Origin: Myxococcus eversor
GTDB lineage: Bacteria > Myxococcota > Myxococcia > Myxococcales > Myxococcaceae
Assembly (NCBI RefSeq): GCF_010894455.1
Contig: NZ_JAAIXY010000001.1
Coordinates: 744,001 to 808,000, forward strand
Length of the DNA stretch: 64,000 nt
Reading direction: 5' to 3'
The notes beneath the pieces are model-generated. The model was not told the origin of the DNA. It ran no database searches and worked only from the letters and a program-made list of their open reading frames with translations. Position numbers and translations under genes: made by a program. Below, in pieces: positions 37,603-44,376 of the stretch; within the stretch, counting starts at the first letter, position 1; every line of letters begins with the position of its first letter.

Positions 37603-39234
37603 CTAAGAGCCGGCGGCGCCGGAGGGGGTGGGGGGCGCCTCCTGCTCGGGCAGGTAGAACGCCCCGGAGCGCGCGGCGAGCACGGCCGCGGTGAGCAGGC
37701 CCACCGTCAACCCGAAGACGACGATGCCGGCCAGCGTCACCCAGTCGGTGACACCCGAGGGCTGGAACAGCGCGGTGAAGGGCGTGGCGAAGTCGAAGCC
37801 CTTCTCGGGGGCCTTGCGCAGGTTCTGCACGGCGGTGAGCAGCGCCGTCGTCATCGCGCCCAGCACCATGCCCACCACGGCCGCGAAGGCCGCGCTGCCC
37901 AGGAGGACGGGACGGGTGACGGCGCGGGTGGTGGGGCGACTCTGCACGTCGAAGTCCGGGTCCTTCACGCCCAGCGGCACGAAGCGCGCGAGCAGCAGCA
38001 GGCCGGGGATGCCACCCACCATGGTGAACCAGAAGAAGGGCTCCCAGCCGATGGCGTACACGAGGAAGCCGGCGATGGGACCCGCCACGACGCGTGGAAT
38101 CGAGAAGAGGCTGGAGAGCAGCGCGAACTGGGTGGCGGAGAAGCGCTTCTGGGTCAGCCGCATCAGCAGCACGGAGAAGGCGCCGGTGCCCAGGCCCTGC
38201 GTCACGTTCTCGAAGCCGATGGCGATGTACATCAGCCACGGCGTGGGGGCTCCCGCCCGCGCGACGAGCACGTAGCCGATGTTGGACACAATCTGGATGA
38301 CGCCGAACACCCAGAGCGCGCGGCCCAGACCCAGCACCGTCGTCCACGCGCCGCCCACGAGCGTGCCGGCGATGGTGCCGAACAGGCCGATGGTGCCCAG
38401 AGCCACGCCCCGGTGCAGGTCGCTGTAGCCCATGTCCACCAGGAAGGGCCGCAACAGCGTGCCGCCGAGGTTGTCGGCCAGCTTGTAGAGGAAGACGAAG
38501 GCGAGGATTTCGAGCGCCCGGTGCCGCGCGAGGAAGCCCACGAAGGGATACCAGACGGCGTCCTTGAGGGACTTCGGAGGCGTGAAGGTCTCCTCCGGCT
38601 CCGGCGCGAAGCGCGTGACGATGAGCATGGGCAGGTACAGCGCCGCCAGCCCGATGACGACCCACTTCCACGACACGCGGCCCGCGAGCGTGATCGCCGC
38701 CGAGCCCGCGATGAACATGGCCGCGCGGTACACCGCCACGCGCGCGCCCACCGCCACGCCCTGCTCCTCCTTGCGCAGCACCTCCACCGCGTACGCGTCG
38801 ATGGCGATGTCCTGCGTCGCCGCGGAGAACGCCACCGCCATGGCCAGCGCGCCCACCACCCACGCCGTCTCCGGATGTTCTCCGATTCCCGCCAGCGCCA
38901 ATGTCGTGGCGAAGAGGGCCACCTGCGCCACCGCCATCCAGCCCCGCCGCCGGCCCCAGAAGGGCGGCACATAGCGGTCCATCAGCGGTGACCAGAGGAA
39001 CTTGAAGGACCACGGCGCCTGCGCCAGCGTGATGATGCCCACCACGCGGATGTCCACGCCGATGCTGCGAAGCCAGTCGGGGATGGCGATCCACACCAGT
39101 CCGAGCGGCAGGCCCGAGGAGAACGAGAGCAGGGTGACGGAGGCCGTCCGCCAGGAGGCCATGGCCCGCGCCAGACTGGCCCAGGTTCCCGGCCGTGCTG
39201 TCTGCTCCGTACTCTTGCCCTGCTGCTCGCTCAT
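37603..39234 (-). CDS. AmpG-type major facilitator permease
   Basis: 543 residues, 12-14 transmembrane helices. The N-terminal region ([30 protein letters not shown]…[12 protein letters not shown]) is characteristic of AmpG, the inner-membrane importer of anhydromuropeptides for cell-wall recycling. The motif [16 protein letters not shown] in helix 4 also matches. Helices 13-14 with a loop near residue 450 are additional, as in longer AmpG homologues. Substrate and any link to beta-lactamase induction are unproven. It is separate from pgm by about 100 bp. Confidence 0.88.
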
Positions 39235-39307: not shown

Positions 39308-40282
39308 TTACCGGTCCAGCGCCGACATGTCCGGGCAGGAGGCGCGCACGCCCTCCGTCGGATTGAGGAAGTCCCAGCTCCGGGAGATGAACGTCACCCG
39401 GCCCTGCGCGTCCCAGCACTCGGTGTACTTCGCCCCGACGATGTCCCCCGTGAGGATCTCCAGCAGGGCCGTGCCCCGGCCGTCCGGCGCCCAGCGGGTG
39501 ACGAGCGCCACGTTCTCCGGCAGTCCCCCCGGAACGAAGTCGGTGCCCCGCATCTCGAAGGTCATCTCCGCCAGGTCTCCCTCCGCCTCGCGGTACATGT
39601 ACCGCCCCGGGAAGACGTCCGGCAGGGGGCCGAAGTACTCCAGCTCCACCTTCGTCGGAAGCCGCTGCGTCTGGTAGCGGATCTCCTGTCCGTCCAGGAA
39701 GTCGACGGAGAAGAGCCACTCCTCCTCGCGCGCGCGCTTCCAGTCGACATAGAGGCGCCCCGTCCCCTTCCGGACGCCCCCGTCGGCCTGGAAGGTGCCC
39801 TCGAGGAAGCTCCACCAGTCCCCCTCGCCCCCGCCGGTCCGGCGGTACTGCGTCTGGTAGTCGAACCGCTCGCCTTCGCGGGTCATCACGAAGCGCGTGT
39901 CGAACTGCATGTCGTTCTTGCCCAGGACGGGTCCCCACACCCTGCGGTTCGGCTCCCGCTTCGTGGGGGGCAGCTTGGTGATGTTCTCCACGGAGTCGAG
40001 CAGGGAGCCAATCGACTCGTTGATGTCGCGCCCTGTCTCATCGGTGTTTCCGACGAGGGTCGACGCGTCACCCAGCTTCTCCATGAGGGCGCTGGGGCTT
40101 CCCACCTTGCCCTGGCGCACCAGTCGCTGGCCGGTGCCGCCGCCCATGCGCTCGCCCGGAGTCGTCACCGAGAGGTCCGCGCGCTGGGGCAGGGCGTTGA
40201 GGAACTCCAGGTCGTCATTGGAGAAGTCGCCGCCGCACGCGGTCAGGGCCAACAGGAGACAGGCAGGTGCCAGGTGTCGCAT
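39308..40282 (-). CDS. lipoprotein B of the sigma/caspase operon
   Basis: 324 residues from the ATG at 40282 (GGAG seven bases upstream; the ATG at 40297 has none). The lipobox is LTAC (Cys15). The body is beta-rich with a C-terminal motif RW-x4-GRG…GDIVG…TECWD. The lipoprotein at 43218-44192 has the same length and the matching elements PPxx…WGP, GxGx5DW and RW-x4-G-x-G…GDLFG…ECWD, so the two look like diverged paralogues. It starts 11 bp after the caspase gene and is probably the last gene of the operon. It is likely a surface or periplasmic sensor or substrate. No known family. Confidence 0.8.
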   Translation of the reverse strand: MRHLAPACLLLALTACGGDFSNDDLEFLNALPQRADLSVTTPGERMGGGTGQRLVRQGKVGSPSALMEKLGDASTLVGNTDETGRDINESIGSLLDSVENITKLPPTKREPNRRVWGPVLGKNDMQFDTRFVMTREGERFDYQTQYRRTGGGEGDWWSFLEGTFQADGGVRKGTGRLYVDWKRAREEEWLFSVDFLDGQEIRYQTQRLPTKVELEYFGPLPDVFPGRYMYREAEGDLAEMTFEMRGTDFVPGGLPENVALVTRWAPDGRGTALLEILTGDIVGAKYTECWDAQGRVTFISRSWDFLNPTEGVRASCPDMSALDR

Positions 40283-40293
40283 CGAAGGCTCCT

Positions 40294-41892
40294 TCATGGC
40301 TGGTACGTGACGAGCGCGCTCAGCTCCCAGAAGCCCAGGGAGCGCTGCTCGTCCACGGTGTAGAGGAGGTAGTGGAGACGGCCCCTGCCCGTCAGGTGCA
40401 GGCTCCGCAGCAGTTGCCAGCGCACTCCCCCCACCACGCCCGGAGAGAACATGGCGAACTTCTGGTCCGGGTAGGCCGCGTCCGCGAAGTCGCGCCGCAT
40501 CACCTGATACGCCATCCGCGCGCCGACGAATGGAGTCACCCGCCCCTGGGGCCACTCGGAGGTGAGCGTCGTGCCCAGGCTCGTCACCGAGTACCGGTAC
40601 GCGGGCCCCGACAGCGTGGGCAATGTCAGCACCGCCTGCTTCCCGCCCACCGCCACGTCCACGCCCCACACCCAGTCGCGGCGGAAGTAGTCGTGGAGCT
40701 GCGCCTCCGCACCCAGCATCCCCACGGACAAAAACAGCGTGTCGCGCGTGGGCGCATCGAGGAACGACTGCACGCCGCCGGACAGGCCCACCGTCCACCA
40801 TGCACCGCCCTCCGGCGCCGCGCCCTTCACCGGGTCGTCGGAGAACGGCGCGTCTCGCAGCCGCGCCTCCTCCAGCACCACCTGCCGCCCCCGGGAGACC
40901 TCCACCTCGCCGATGCGCAGCCGGTCCGACAGACGACGCTTCACGCGGTACGTGCCCGGAGCGAGCGCCACGCGGCGCTCCACGTCGGGCCGCTTGTCCA
41001 GCTCCGCCACCACCAAGCCGGCGGGGTCCACGAAGTAGTACGTGCCCGCGGGCGCGAGGCCAGGCACCACGAGCCCGTCACCGCCCGCGCGCAGGTCCGT
41101 CAGCACCAGGTCCCCGTTGCCCGCCAGGTCGTAGCTGAACGTCGGGTGCTGCGCGCCTCCGCTGCTGGCCGCCGTGTCCGCCACCGTGCGGGCGTAGGCA
41201 TGCGAGTACGCCTCGAACAACGTCACCCGTCCGTCGCCGCTCCTGTCCGCGTCTCCCAAGAGGCCGCTGGCCAGGTGGTGGGAGAAGTAGCTGCCGCTCA
41301 GCGCGTCCGACTCCTGAGAGTCCTCGTCCGCAGAACTGGAGGTGAGGATGACCAGCCCCCGTGCGTCGCGCGCGGCGCCGGACTCGATTTCGAAGCGGGG
41401 CGCCCGTCGCGCGCCCTTGGTGCGCGTCAGCGCTCCGGAGCGGCACGAGTCGAGAATCGCGATGCGGATGTCCGCGGGCGCATTCGACAGCCGCTGCTTG
41501 AGGTCCTCGAAGCCCAGCCGGCTGTTGCCCAGGCGGAGCGTGCCGTCCTTCGCGTGGCCGGAGTAGTAGACGAGCAGCGCCGTGCGCTCACCTCGCGATT
41601 GAGCCTCCTTCGCCCGCGCCTCCAGCGCCGTCAGCGCCGCGAGGAAGTCCTTGGAGGACTCGTTGAGCAGGAGCTTCGCGTCACCGGGAGCGACACCGCC
41701 CAGACGCGTCAGCAGGCCGTGCATCTTTCGCGCATCGTCCTGGGCGAAGCGCAGGGGCCGCGTCTCGTCGCCGCCCTCGTCGTTGCCCGCCACCAGCGCG
41801 AAGCGGCGCAGGCTGTCCGCGTGCGCTGCCGACGCGACGAGCAGGAAGAGGGCGGCCAGCGCGCGCCAGGAAGGGGGCAGGGGGAGCCTCAT
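40294..41892 (-). CDS. exported caspase-like protease with barrel-like C-terminus
   Basis: 532 residues from the ATG at 41892. Signal peptide about 1-25. Residues 28-240 form a peptidase C14 (caspase/metacaspase) domain with catalytic His113 in YYSGHAKDG and Cys150 in ILDSCRSGA. An EF-hand-like loop DRSGDGRVTLFE (216-227) suggests calcium dependence, as in metacaspases. Residues ~260-340 form a PEGA-like or carboxypeptidase-regulatory beta domain. The last ~170 residues have the alternating pattern of a small outer-membrane beta-barrel ending in aromatic residues. Its ATG overlaps the anti-sigma stop (ATGA). It is probably a periplasmic or outer-membrane regulated protease. Confidence 0.88.
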   Translation of the reverse strand: MRLPLPPSWRALAALFLLVASAAHADSLRRFALVAGNDEGGDETRPLRFAQDDARKMHGLLTRLGGVAPGDAKLLLNESSKDFLAALTALEARAKEAQSRGERTALLVYYSGHAKDGTLRLGNSRLGFEDLKQRLSNAPADIRIAILDSCRSGALTRTKGARRAPRFEIESGAARDARGLVILTSSSADEDSQESDALSGSYFSHHLASGLLGDADRSGDGRVTLFEAYSHAYARTVADTAASSGGAQHPTFSYDLAGNGDLVLTDLRAGGDGLVVPGLAPAGTYYFVDPAGLVVAELDKRPDVERRVALAPGTYRVKRRLSDRLRIGEVEVSRGRQVVLEEARLRDAPFSDDPVKGAAPEGGAWWTVGLSGGVQSFLDAPTRDTLFLSVGMLGAEAQLHDYFRRDWVWGVDVAVGGKQAVLTLPTLSGPAYRYSVTSLGTTLTSEWPQGRVTPFVGARMAYQVMRRDFADAAYPDQKFAMFSPGVVGGVRWQLLRSLHLTGRGRLHYLLYTVDEQRSLGFWELSALVTYQP

Positions 41893-42653
41893 GGCTTGAA
41901 CAGCATCCAGTGCGTCTGCGCACCCGGCACGTCGAGCGGGGACATCTGCGCCACTTCTCCGTTCGCCGCCGCGAAGGCGCGCCGCGTCGCCTCCACCAGC
42001 GACTCCACCGTGAAGGGCTCGTCGCCGAGCACCAGCACCACGCGCTCGGCCCCGGAGCCGGTGAACTCCCAGCTTCCCTCGAGCCAGTGCAGGTCCGCGC
42101 CTGGCTCCACGGGCGTGCTCGCGCCGGACTCCGGATGCAGCGCCGTCACCTCGCCGATGGCATCCACGGACACCGCGGCCACGTACCGGTGCGTGCCCGA
42201 CTTGTAGCCCAGCATCACCCGCTCGCCCGGCTCCAGCGCTTCGATGGAATCCGGCTTCACCTCGCGCTGGGGCCCGGAGCCCCCGCCGATGCGCAGCTCC
42301 GCCACGTCCGCGCTGCCCTTGCTCCGATCCCAACCTGGACCCTGGTTCAAGAGCGGTCGGGCCAGCACCACCAGCAGCACCGACGCGGCCAGGGCCACCG
42401 TCGTCGCCACCCAGCGCCGGGGGGAGGGCTTCAGGGCCGCCCGCCGCCGCTCCAGCGCGCGCTGCACTTCCAGCTCGAAGCGCTCGAAAGGAATCGCCGC
42501 CTCGAAGCCTGCCTGGTTCGACTCGAGGCCACGCAGCACGGCGCCACAGGCGTCGCAGCTCGACGCGTGGGTGCTGGCGCGAGCGGCCTCGGGTGCGGCC
42601 AGCTCACCGGCGTGCAGGCGTCGCAGTGTCCACTCAGACTCGTGCGCGCTCAT
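41889..42653 (-). CDS. zinc-finger anti-sigma factor with DUF4384-like sensor
   Basis: 254 residues from the ATG at 42653, overlapping the sigma gene by 4 bp. The N-terminal cytoplasmic domain has the HX3CX2C zinc motif (His29, Cys33, Cys36) of ZAS anti-sigma factors. One transmembrane helix spans about 81-100. The outside part (about 130-240: LEPGERVMLGYKSGTHRYVAA…EVTALHPESG…ERVVLVLGDEPF) resembles DUF4384 domains, often found with caspase-like proteins. It should hold the ECF factor until an envelope signal arrives. Membership of DUF4384 is by eye. Confidence 0.87.
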   Translation of the reverse strand: MSAHESEWTLRRLHAGELAAPEAARASTHASSCDACGAVLRGLESNQAGFEAAIPFERFELEVQRALERRRAALKPSPRRWVATTVALAASVLLVVLARPLLNQGPGWDRSKGSADVAELRIGGGSGPQREVKPDSIEALEPGERVMLGYKSGTHRYVAAVSVDAIGEVTALHPESGASTPVEPGADLHWLEGSWEFTGSGAERVVLVLGDEPFTVESLVEATRRAFAAANGEVAQMSPLDVPGAQTHWMLFKP

Positions 42654-43192
42654 CGGACCTTCAGCTCCTCTCCACCCAGCTCGGCGAAGCGTTCCAGCCG
42701 CTTGCGAATCGTGGGCACGGAACGCCCCAGCAACGCGGCCACCTCTTCCAATGTCATCCCGTCCACGTGGTAGTGGACCACCGCCGCTTGCGTCTCCTCG
42801 TCCACCCGGGCTAGCAGCCGGCGCACCAGGTCGCGCGTCTCCAGCTCTCCGGCGCCACCGTGGGCCTCGGAGCGTGCCTCCGCGTCCCGCTCGAACCACT
42901 GACGCCAGCCCGCGCGCTCCGAGCGGAGCTGGTTGAGACAGTGGTGCGTGGCGATCTTCATCAACCACGTCAGCGGCGAGGCGTCCGCGCGGAAGTCGTC
43001 CGCGTGGGTGAGGGCTCGGGCGAACACGTCATGCATCGCGTCCTCCGCCTTCGTCGCGTCCTTCAACAAGTAGCGGCAGCGTCCCATCACGCTGCCGCCA
43101 TACCGCGTGTACAAGTCGCGCAGGAAGTCACGCCGGTCCGGCTGGGGACCACCTGGGATGACCCTGAGGGCCGGCTGACGGGGACCTGTCAC
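42650..43192 (-). CDS. ECF-type RNA polymerase sigma factor
   Basis: 180 residues. Region 2 is at about 22-90 (YTRYGGSVMGRCRYLLKD, EDAMHDVFARAL) and region 4 at about 120-175 (LARVDEETQAAVVHYHVDGMT, then LEEVAALLGRSVPTIRKRL), the standard two-domain extracytoplasmic-function factor. The best start is GTG at 43192, with no strong ribosome-binding site, so translation may depend on coupling to the upstream lipoprotein gene (25 bp away). It overlaps its anti-sigma gene by 4 bp. It probably controls its own operon. Confidence 0.93.
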   Translation of the reverse strand: MTGPRQPALRVIPGGPQPDRRDFLRDLYTRYGGSVMGRCRYLLKDATKAEDAMHDVFARALTHADDFRADASPLTWLMKIATHHCLNQLRSERAGWRQWFERDAEARSEAHGGAGELETRDLVRRLLARVDEETQAAVVHYHVDGMTLEEVAALLGRSVPTIRKRLERFAELGGEELKVR

Positions 43193-43217
43193 GCGCCGCA
43201 GACTAGCGCGAGCGGGC

Positions 43218-44192
43218 TCACAGCGTGGAGTAGACCGCCGCGTTGAAGCTCCCGCAGGCGCCCACCGCCCCGTAGCCGATGGCCGGGTTGAAGCTCACCG
43301 CGTAGTAGACGCTGAGGAAGTTGCTGTCCCAGCACTCGTTGATGGTGGCCTCGCCGAAGAGGTCTCCGCCCGACAGCTTGATGTCCGAGCGACCAAGCCC
43401 CGTGCGCTCCCAGCGGCTCTTGATGGACAGCTTCTCCAACTGCGAACGCGAGGGGTCCACGTCGATGTTCTGCTTCACGACGTAGTCCAGCTCGCCCCCC
43501 ATGCCCGGCGCCTGCTTGAAGCGATAGTTCGCATCCACGAGGGTTCCGCCGCCGGCATCCACCTTGAAGTCCGCCTCCACCGAGGCCACCGTGCCGGGGG
43601 CCGTGCGCGCGTAGCGGATCTCCATCGTCGCCACGCCCGTCTCGTCCTCGTTGCCAGGCAGGGCGTTGCTCTTGTCCCAGTCGATGATGAACTGGCCGGA
43701 GCCGTAGCCGGAGCGGCGCTCGCCGTTCTCGTCGACCGCCGCCGTGTGCGAGCCGGACAGCACCGTCTTGAAGTTCGTGTCAGGCTCGATCTTGGCCTTG
43801 GCCGCCAGCACCCACGAGTAGGTGTCATCGTCGGTGCGCGTGACGGTCAGCTTCCAGGTGGTGGGGCTCAGGGCGTCCGTGTGAGGACCCCACACCGCGA
43901 CCTCTCCCTGGATGGAGGACGGCGGATACTTGACGATCTCCTCGACCAGGTTGAGCACCGCCAGCGTTCCGCCGTTGATGCTCGCGGCGGCGGCCACGGT
44001 GAGGAAGTAGTACTCCGCCGTCTGGCCCTGGGTGTACGCGGCGACCAGTCCCTGGCCGCCCGGACCCGGCGAGGCGACCTCCACCATCTGCTTGGACGGA
44101 AGTCCCTGGCGGAACGAATCAGCGTCCTGCTTCGAGTCAGGATCGCATCCAGCGAGCAACAGGGAGGCACACAGCAGGCTCTTGCGCAGCAT
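43218..44192 (-). CDS. lipoprotein A of the sigma/caspase operon
   Basis: 324 residues. Signal peptide with lipobox LAGC (Cys16). It is beta-rich, with no known family. It shares with lipoprotein B (39308-40282) the order of motifs WGP, GxGxFxxDW and a C-terminal RW-x4-G-x-G…GD-x2-G…ECWD. It is first in the operon, ahead of the sigma gene. A plausible role is an extracellular ligand-binding or sensor component, or a substrate of the caspase-like protease; both are inference. Confidence 0.8.
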   Translation of the reverse strand: MLRKSLLCASLLLAGCDPDSKQDADSFRQGLPSKQMVEVASPGPGGQGLVAAYTQGQTAEYYFLTVAAAASINGGTLAVLNLVEEIVKYPPSSIQGEVAVWGPHTDALSPTTWKLTVTRTDDDTYSWVLAAKAKIEPDTNFKTVLSGSHTAAVDENGERRSGYGSGQFIIDWDKSNALPGNEDETGVATMEIRYARTAPGTVASVEADFKVDAGGGTLVDANYRFKQAPGMGGELDYVVKQNIDVDPSRSQLEKLSIKSRWERTGLGRSDIKLSGGDLFGEATINECWDSNFLSVYYAVSFNPAIGYGAVGACGSFNAAVYSTL

Positions 44193-44376
44193 GGTCCTTC
44201 TACCTTTCGGATGGCCCCCGGCGGGCCGTGCGGCAGCGTGTTCGCTCCTATGGACACAGCCCTGGCGAAAAACAGAAAGCGCGCCTGCACGCTCTTTGAA
44301 AGCCTTGGGATTCCAGTGGGTTGGAGCTCGCTAGGACGCTCTTCGGGCGACTTCAGCCGGCCGGCGGACGACGGAA

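Follow-up and report, generated by a model that had tools for sequence, protein, structure and literature searches.

A myxobacterial operon joining an exported caspase to a sigma/anti-sigma pair: a predicted envelope switch based on regulated proteolysis

A five-gene operon of Myxococcus eversor probably encodes an envelope alarm, and we consider it likely that this alarm is a regulated-proteolysis switch in which an exported caspase acts as the first protease on the anti-sigma factor encoded beside it, the sigma factor being freed by a cut after Lys112. The operon lies in a 64,000-nucleotide stretch of the 11.4-Mb genome (assembly GCF_010894455.1, contig NZ_JAAIXY010000001.1, positions 744,001 to 808,000; hereafter the window) and encodes, in order on the minus strand, a lipoprotein (LipoA), an extracytoplasmic function (ECF) sigma factor, a zinc anti-sigma factor, the exported caspase and a second lipoprotein (LipoB). 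The proposal draws on a lysine-glycine (KG) site kept in both caspase and anti-sigma factor, and on covariation between the two proteins around that site.

An earlier interpretation made from the letters of this DNA (the sequence-only reading) had described five same-strand genes separated by gaps of 25 and 11 bp and joined by two 4-bp ATGA overlaps. The coordinates, given here and below as window positions, agree with it:

43218..44192, minus strand: LipoA, a 324-residue lipoprotein with lipobox LAGC and no Pfam family
42650..43192, minus strand: ECF sigma factor, 180 residues, GTG start, with sigma-70 regions 2 and 4
41889..42653, minus strand: transmembrane zinc anti-sigma factor, 254 residues, with a periplasmic DUF4384-like domain
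40294..41892, minus strand: exported caspase with a C-terminal outer-membrane-type barrel, 532 residues, assigned from PF00656 and a predicted model
39308..40282, minus strand: LipoB, a 324-residue lipoprotein and LipoA paralogue

Lysine-glycine sites and covariation of caspase and anti-sigma factor

The sites and domains on which the argument turns are as follows:

42546..42569, minus strand: HX3CX2C zinc finger of the anti-sigma factor (H29, C33, C36), from the orthologue alignment
42348..42404, minus strand: single transmembrane helix of the anti-sigma factor, approximately residues 84-102, from hydropathy
42315..42326, minus strand: anti-sigma R110-S-K112-G113, predicted caspase cleavage site with the cut after K112, from conservation and covariation
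41554..41556, minus strand: catalytic His113 of the caspase, in 49/49 orthologues
41443..41445, minus strand: catalytic Cys150, in 49/49 orthologues
41413..41424, minus strand: caspase R157-T-K159-G160, where self-processing is predicted, bordering a low-confidence loop; from conservation and the model
41305..41307, minus strand: caspase Asp196, top covariation partner of anti-sigma R110 and predicted S3/S4 subsite residue (a subsite that we presume)
41212..41253, minus strand: EF-hand-like acidic loop D214-E227 of the caspase, from the orthologue alignment
40822..40827, minus strand: K356-G357, where release of the protease part from the barrel is predicted, in 54/54 caspases
40303..40800, minus strand: predicted 8-stranded transmembrane beta-barrel, caspase residues 365-530, from the model and Foldseek

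Triads of sigma factor, anti-sigma factor and caspase were sampled from 213 distinct caspases of related loci, 184 of which have an anti-sigma gene directly upstream together with the Cys motif, and 180 of these a clear membrane helix. The caspase carries KG at nine residues past the catalytic cysteine (Cys+9) in 178 of the 180 triads and at Cys+11 in the other two. At the anti-sigma column of K112 the residue is Lys in 175 triads and Arg in three, giving [K/R]G in 177, and the pair lies 6-29 residues beyond the membrane helix. K112 is present in all 50 rows of the anti-sigma alignment, where the RxKG motif sits just outside the membrane, and the invariant KG pairs of 54 caspases are K159-G160 and K356-G357, with no others. 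Asp148, two residues before the catalytic cysteine, is found in 179 of 179 triads; we take it to have a role in the S1 pocket, and proteolysis with a basic residue at P1 (the residue before the cut) remains a prediction.

Three sets of control loci were compared with the triads. Among 30 loci built from 52 zf-HC2 matches, 14 anti-sigma factors lack a clear helix and two have a caspase in the locus; none of the 14 remaining transmembrane zinc anti-sigma factors, one of which (L377) ends three residues past its helix, has KG within 30 residues of the helix. The two with a caspase read KG (L376) and RSRG (L381). The PF00656 control comprises 30 loci of 43 matches from six genomes, one of which (L185) is not counted either way as its catalytic cysteine could not be located; 19 of the 30 caspases have KG at Cys+8 or Cys+9, and an anti-sigma-like open reading frame (ORF) is present in 18 of those 19 loci. 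The seven caspases with no anti-sigma-like ORF lack KG, one of them (L188) having a sigma-like ORF. For DUF4384 proteins, the 50 listed matches yielded 30 loci, of which six lay too near a contig end and 24 were judged: KG is absent from the usual place in all nine with no sigma neighbour and present in 14 of the 15 with one, the exception being L338.

The covariation analysis used 179 triads, L179 having been dropped for its masked residues. The residue two positions before the lysine (P3) is Arg in both the caspase linker and the anti-sigma factor in 141 triads, in neither in 19 and discordant in 19 (table [[141,13],[6,19]]; Fisher p = 1.9e-12). The match persists with one triad per 60% cluster (n = 51, p = 2.9e-4) and per 50% cluster (n = 28, p = 0.0028), and correlated evolution is favoured on a tree built without residues 151-170 (likelihood-ratio statistic 16.5, p = 0.0024). 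When partners were shuffled within the 18 genomes that hold both types, 48 of 55 cognate pairs matched against 29.5 expected (p = 5e-5). By corrected mutual information over 42,140 pairs of variable columns, D196 with R110 ranks first and R157 with R110 third under both weightings; the former pair scores 0.235, and the best of 20 random re-pairings reaches 0.147. Residue 196 is Asp in 146 of the 154 triads with a linker Arg as opposed to 6 of the 25 without one, and an acid here reading the Arg at P3 makes sense, on a placement that we presume. Residue 120, first in a raw single-column test, is not claimed because its rank fell to 310th and 479th after correction.

Several individual loci bear on these sites. 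In L312 and L313 the caspase KG is shifted to Cys+11 and the cognate anti-sigma factor reads RVRG, as if enzyme and target had changed together. L274 and L297, sister loci of the same family, hold a sigma/anti-sigma pair that lacks KG and has no caspase in the stretch examined; both may have been lost naturally. In L306 (contig C30 of the M. eversor genome) and L281, a sigma/anti-sigma pair with KG is followed, in place of the caspase gene, by one whose product looks by eye like an outer-membrane barrel standing alone, with no KG near its start. L184, L186 and L200, the last in the M. eversor genome itself, encode a distinct caspase type with TCHSGxGKS around the cysteine, beside sigma genes.

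Architecture and conservation of the five-gene set

The caspase scores 46.1 bits against PF00656 (cut-off 21.4), its sole Pfam match, and His113, Cys150, Asp148, Asp216, Asp220 and Glu227 are each invariant in 49 of 49 orthologues, the first two being the pair noted in the sequence-only reading. Together with the caspase fold of its model, this score and the dyad place it among homologues of the C14 peptidases. The AlphaFold model (predicted local distance difference test, pLDDT, 84; 54 sequences) consists of a caspase domain at approximately residues 28-257, a small beta region and strands at 365-530, and its loop 158-175 has pLDDT below 50. Residues 28-270 match Arabidopsis metacaspase 4 (Z 21.7, root-mean-square deviation (rmsd) 2.7, 209 residues aligned). 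This kinship emerged from fold comparison only, a phmmer search of the caspase against PDB sequences having matched no caspase. At 65.8 bits against a cut-off of 140, the protein falls outside the EACC1-type caspase family NF047832. Residues D216, D220 and E227 of the EF-hand-like loop are conserved in all 49 orthologues, which does not demonstrate the possible calcium activation raised by the sequence-only reading.

The barrel-like C-terminus noted earlier was recovered in the predicted model, whose strands match OmpA, NspA and OmpX (Foldseek E 1.9e-9 to 4e-6, probability 1.00, for the model only); we predict from it an outer-membrane barrel of eight strands with the OmpA/OmpX fold. Because the protein has a signal peptide and its strands are even in number, its protease part would lie in the periplasm. 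K356-G357 adjoins a low-confidence stretch (357-361) just before the barrel. In tails of barrel length (215-300 residues), 116 of 121 caspases have KG 80-105 residues after the p20/p10 region, compared with 85 of 3,760 random windows of 25 residues taken farther down the tails; the count is 54 of 59 among caspases scoring at most 325, a group in which at least four five-gene loci remain, and 5 of 11 among those with longer tails. By its conservation and position, K356-G357 looks like a release site.

The pairing of an ECF sigma factor with a zinc anti-sigma factor also stood. The sigma factor matches PF04542 (1.4e-14) and PF08281 (1.2e-9) over the Pfam cut-offs, and in the orthologues of its partner the HX3CX2C motif is nearly invariant (H29 in 45 of 46, with one gap; C33 and C36 in 46 of 46). 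Sigma-70 regions 2 and 4, this motif and one membrane helix identify an ECF sigma/membrane zinc anti-sigma pair. The M. eversor anti-sigma factor itself scores under the zf-HC2 cut-off (10.8 versus 22.2 bits); of the 50 proteins aligned with it, 28 match zf-HC2 and 31 match DUF4384 at E ≤ 0.1. A site-2 protease of family M50 is matched in the genome (best E 4.2e-72).

LipoA and LipoB are probably sensors or brakes. The sequence-only reading had called them paralogous on the strength of a shared motif order and equal length: the kinship held (BLASTP E 3e-10, 24% identity, aligned over their length), and the equal length of 324 residues is fortuitous here, with lengths of about 290 to 375 residues in complete relatives. 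The lipobox cysteine is present in 44 of 44 LipoA and 46 of 46 LipoB orthologues. Neither protein matched a Pfam family, and an alignment of 73 members compared with families gave just five single-member matches at E 0.02-0.1. The predicted LipoA model (pLDDT 88.6) shows 14 strands in succession with a single long helix (60-86) and had no confident relative among solved structures (Foldseek best E 9.6e-3; VIA best Z 10.3, to ApoB, rmsd 6.4); the listed structure matches include no RseB/LolA-like fold, which does not exclude one.

A promoter-like element precedes the operon:

44252..44278, minus strand: promoter-like element TTTCTGTTTT-N11-GTGTCC, approximately 60 bp upstream of LipoA

In orthologues the consensus TTTC[T/C]GTTTT-N10-12-GTGTC stands before the first gene, namely LipoA, or the sigma gene where LipoA is missing; the base directly before GTGTC is T in this genome. 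Of 60 loci, 48 have a looser form upstream of their first operon gene; among 20,000 size-matched random windows it occurs in 235. A relaxed pattern has a single match in the 11.4-Mb genome, at 44252-44278, and the strict pattern in five other genomes has a second copy in one and no copy in another. The element fits a self-regulated operon and is presumably read by the sigma factor of the set.

Conservation of the gene order, which the sequence-only reading had proposed to look for in relatives, was assessed in 51 suitable loci drawn from 80 named ones, each with an orthologue-level caspase of at least 480 residues, flanked by 2.6 kb of upstream and 1 kb of downstream sequence. All five genes occur in order in 45, which span Myxococcus, Pyxidicoccus, Corallococcus, Archangium, Hyalangium and Anaeromyxobacter records and many metagenome-assembled genomes (MAGs). 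Among the six exceptions, LipoA is missing in four, LipoB in one and both in one. Start codons of the relatives were assigned by rule, which leaves their gene gaps rough. Among the named loci listed, the closest is that of Myxococcus qinghaiensis (caspase identity 97%). A caspase match (E ≤ 1e-20, paralogues included) is present in 96 of the 117 genomes of the order, and a LipoA match (E ≤ 1e-5, paralogues and 62-residue remnants included) in 85 of them. The genes flanking the operon in the window are conserved in near relatives only (AmpG-like neighbour 15 of 51, upstream neighbour 24 of 55). Given that these flanks persist only in near relatives while the set is kept in 45 of 51 loci, the five genes travel together on a changing background. 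The kept gene order, common upstream element and varying flanks uphold a single operon, and the five-gene set is an old unit.

The same comparison yielded decayed and partial loci. Four congeners of 9.1-9.3 Mb (L054, L055, L056 and L057) retain the promoter element; in them an in-frame fusion joins the start of LipoA with the end of the sigma gene, the anti-sigma frame is open, the caspase is truncated or not found and LipoB was not found in the stretch examined. They appear to have lost the system by deletion. In another congener (L053) the caspase gene is split by approximately 2.3-2.5 kb of extra sequence and also contains a stop. Other genomes of the family (L096, L100, L101) have LipoA relatives with no caspase in the stretch examined. 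Triads with KG occur in MAGs titled Gemmatimonadetes, Aminicenantes and Chrysiogenales (L173, L176, L178), so the triad is not confined to Myxococcota.

A gene for an AmpG-family muropeptide transporter (37603-39234, minus strand) lies 73 bp past LipoB on the same strand and adjoins the operon only in near relatives. It was considered as a sixth core gene and rejected, since it stands beside the operon in 15 of the 51 loci with room for it.

A proposed switch and its alternatives

In the proposed mechanism the anti-sigma factor, seated in the inner membrane, would hold the ECF sigma factor in the cytoplasm and expose its RxKG motif a few residues outside the membrane. The exported caspase would be tethered to the outer membrane by its eight-stranded barrel, with the N-terminal protease domain in the periplasm. 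A signal in the envelope, possibly read by LipoA and LipoB, would trigger the caspase, which would then mature by a self-cut after K159 and come off its barrel by another after K356. The freed enzyme would reach the inner membrane and cut the anti-sigma factor after K112, as a site-1 protease, whereupon intramembrane site-2 proteolysis would free the sigma factor. The latter would transcribe its own operon from the element before LipoA, giving positive feedback. The cleavages, how the events follow one another, what the lipoproteins do and the recognition of the promoter are all inferred from the comparisons above.

A broader version, which we offer only tentatively and think somewhat less probable than its being wrong, describes a trans-envelope tripwire in which a caspase stored on its barrel frees itself at KG and cuts the anti-sigma factor of its own operon; outer-membrane damage, failed barrel assembly or lipoprotein signalling would set it off. 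A code formed by P3 and residue 196 would keep separate triads apart, and many of the bacterial caspases linked to sigma factors, both in Myxococcota and in some further phyla, would be dedicated anti-sigma proteases and not killers.

A number of points weigh against the proposed switch. Its cleavage steps are predictions from sequence comparison, and the KG of the caspase, of the linker before the barrel or of the DUF4384 domain may be structural. By caspase numbering, Asp196 is presumed to occupy the position of caspase-3 N208, on the substrate-binding strand. The P3 types disagree in 19 of the 179 triads; the triads are mutually related, and the tree test is moderately significant only. At K356 the P3 residue in orthologues is mostly Pro, not Arg, so that this site is perhaps a poor one or none. 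The L381 anti-sigma factor, beside a caspase, carries RSRG after its helix in place of KG, and three caspases of the other type lack KG, two (L184, L200) with an anti-sigma-like ORF and one (L186) with a sigma gene. Eleven anti-sigma loci have no caspase in the stretch examined: eight keep KG, one has KS and two lack KG. Since KG is kept in eight of them, either adjacency is not required or the cut is made in trans, which weakens a strict link. A protease held at the outer membrane must moreover cross the periplasm, and type I metacaspases are described as not processing themselves between p20 and p10 (in the portion of PMC5756287 consulted).

The caspase could instead be a sigma-controlled executioner for death or lysis, with some other protease starting anti-sigma cleavage and the KG sites constrained separately. 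Its place as fourth gene of an apparently self-regulated operon would suit such a role, and a function in death or autolysis has been suggested for Myxococcus metacaspases (Asplund-Samuelsson et al. 2012, PMC3501461, in the part of the text seen). However, an executioner role gives no reason for the anti-sigma P3 to covary with D196 and with the P3 of the linker more strongly than nearly all of the 42,140 pairs do, nor for KG to be absent from other zinc anti-sigma factors, and we regard this explanation as unlikely. Shared history offers another account, in which KG is merely the first strand of a DUF4384 variant and a caspase p10 linker and the P3 covariation reflects descent from two paralogous triad types. 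The triads are indeed homologous, KG stands at a fairly fixed distance before DUF4384, and the retention of KG in eight of the eleven anti-sigma factors with no caspase in the stretch examined agrees with it. Set against these are the nine judged DUF4384 proteins with no sigma neighbour, all of which lack KG, the sister loci L274 and L297, which lack caspase and KG alike, and the clustered, tree-based and within-genome tests, which are still significant; we judge this account improbable.

The sequence-only reading had suggested that the protease acts on a partner, either the lipoproteins or the sensor domain of the anti-sigma factor, as a feedback element. For the anti-sigma factor, a partner role is favoured by the conserved KG that covaries with the caspase. 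The lipoproteins are unsupported as caspase substrates because they have no comparably conserved KG: the best column reaches 30% in 44 LipoA and 50% in 46 LipoB sequences, versus 98% in 46 anti-sigma factors, and several named triad loci outside the orthologue group (L173-L180) show no such lipoprotein. That the caspase should act mainly on LipoA, LipoB or the sensor domain as negative feedback is thus, in our estimation, very improbable, even though the lipoproteins are co-conserved with it and one LipoB column has KG in half of the 46 sequences. The term feedback element understates the role of the caspase, which is better read as an activating protease.

Related systems and implications

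In Escherichia coli, the sigmaE-RseA-DegS-RseB-RseP system begins with a periplasmic first cut of a single-pass anti-sigma factor near the membrane, followed by site-2 proteolysis. The switch proposed here would share both the periplasmic cut near the membrane and the site-2 step; in E. coli, however, a PDZ serine protease cuts first, where here the first cut would fall to a caspase. DegS, RseA and RseP are also mentioned in the consulted portion of a study of the type III-E CRISPR system Csx29-Csx30-CASP-sigma (PMC10028731). There, too, a caspase-like protease cuts the inhibitor of an ECF-type sigma factor, although Csx29 belongs to the TPR-CHAT proteins and is switched on by target RNA via Cas7-11, unlike the exported, C14-type, barrel-bearing caspase of M. 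eversor. The operon does not belong to type III-E by its listed Pfam and NCBIfam rows, which contain no Cas or CHAT family (for the sigma factor in NCBIfam, 25 of 86 matches). A phage-defence reading was likewise set aside, PADLOC having returned weak matches only (caspase model 0.027; for the sigma protein, mad1 0.004 and BrxC 0.0099).

Other bacterial caspases offer partial parallels, described here from those portions of the cited papers that were available. The EACC2-caspase (Kaur et al. 2021, PMC8195603) is encoded together with an ECF sigma factor and is proposed to activate itself; the available text makes no mention of an anti-sigma factor, signal peptide, periplasm or outer membrane. 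Characterised non-metazoan C14 proteases favour Arg or Lys at P1, and orthocaspases process themselves, MaOC1 of Microcystis being active only once p20 has been cut from the chain (PMC5756287). MaOC1 resembles our enzyme as a bacterial C14 protease with basic P1 and self-processing (PMC5756287, PMC6426788) and in adjoining the partner that it reportedly cuts, an antitoxin (PMC7935541); it differs in that the partner belongs to a toxin-antitoxin module, not a sigma/anti-sigma pair, and in having no extra C-terminal domain (PMC5756287, PMC6426788). Known substrates of bacterial caspases are few, namely the CRISPR inhibitor Csx30 (PMC10028731) and the antitoxin that MaOC1 is reported to cut (PMC7935541).

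The sequence-only reading knew of no description of this exact set. Its sigma and caspase core had in fact been reported in 2012, in a survey that lists sigma-70/metacaspase operons in Myxococcus xanthus DK1622 (four), Anaeromyxobacter, Haliangium, Sorangium, Ralstonia and Fibrobacter (Asplund-Samuelsson et al. 2012, PMC3501461). The five-gene set is of the same kind, with a sigma and a caspase gene in one predicted operon. The survey also records an OmpA domain in 14 metacaspase operons and leaves function open for 70 of 217. In its available text, anti-sigma factors, DUF4384, zinc and beta-barrels do not appear, nor does the five-gene set, and "lipoprotein" occurs once, in lipoprotein metabolism. 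To those operons the present analysis adds a proposed substrate, cleavage site and tether. Among open-licence PubMed Central papers, we found no report that links sigma-caspase operons to anti-sigma cleavage.

The proposal puts a name to the substrate and fixes the exact cut after K112; it also offers matching sites for self-processing and for release of the tether, together with a residue that would set specificity, and each of these is testable with purified proteins. If it is true, sigma-linked caspases would be signal transducers that switch on transcription, and the presence of such caspases in multicellular bacteria would be read differently. The P3/residue-196 code would explain how many parallel triads coexist in one cell, and bacterial caspases would gain a concrete job and a testable target sequence.

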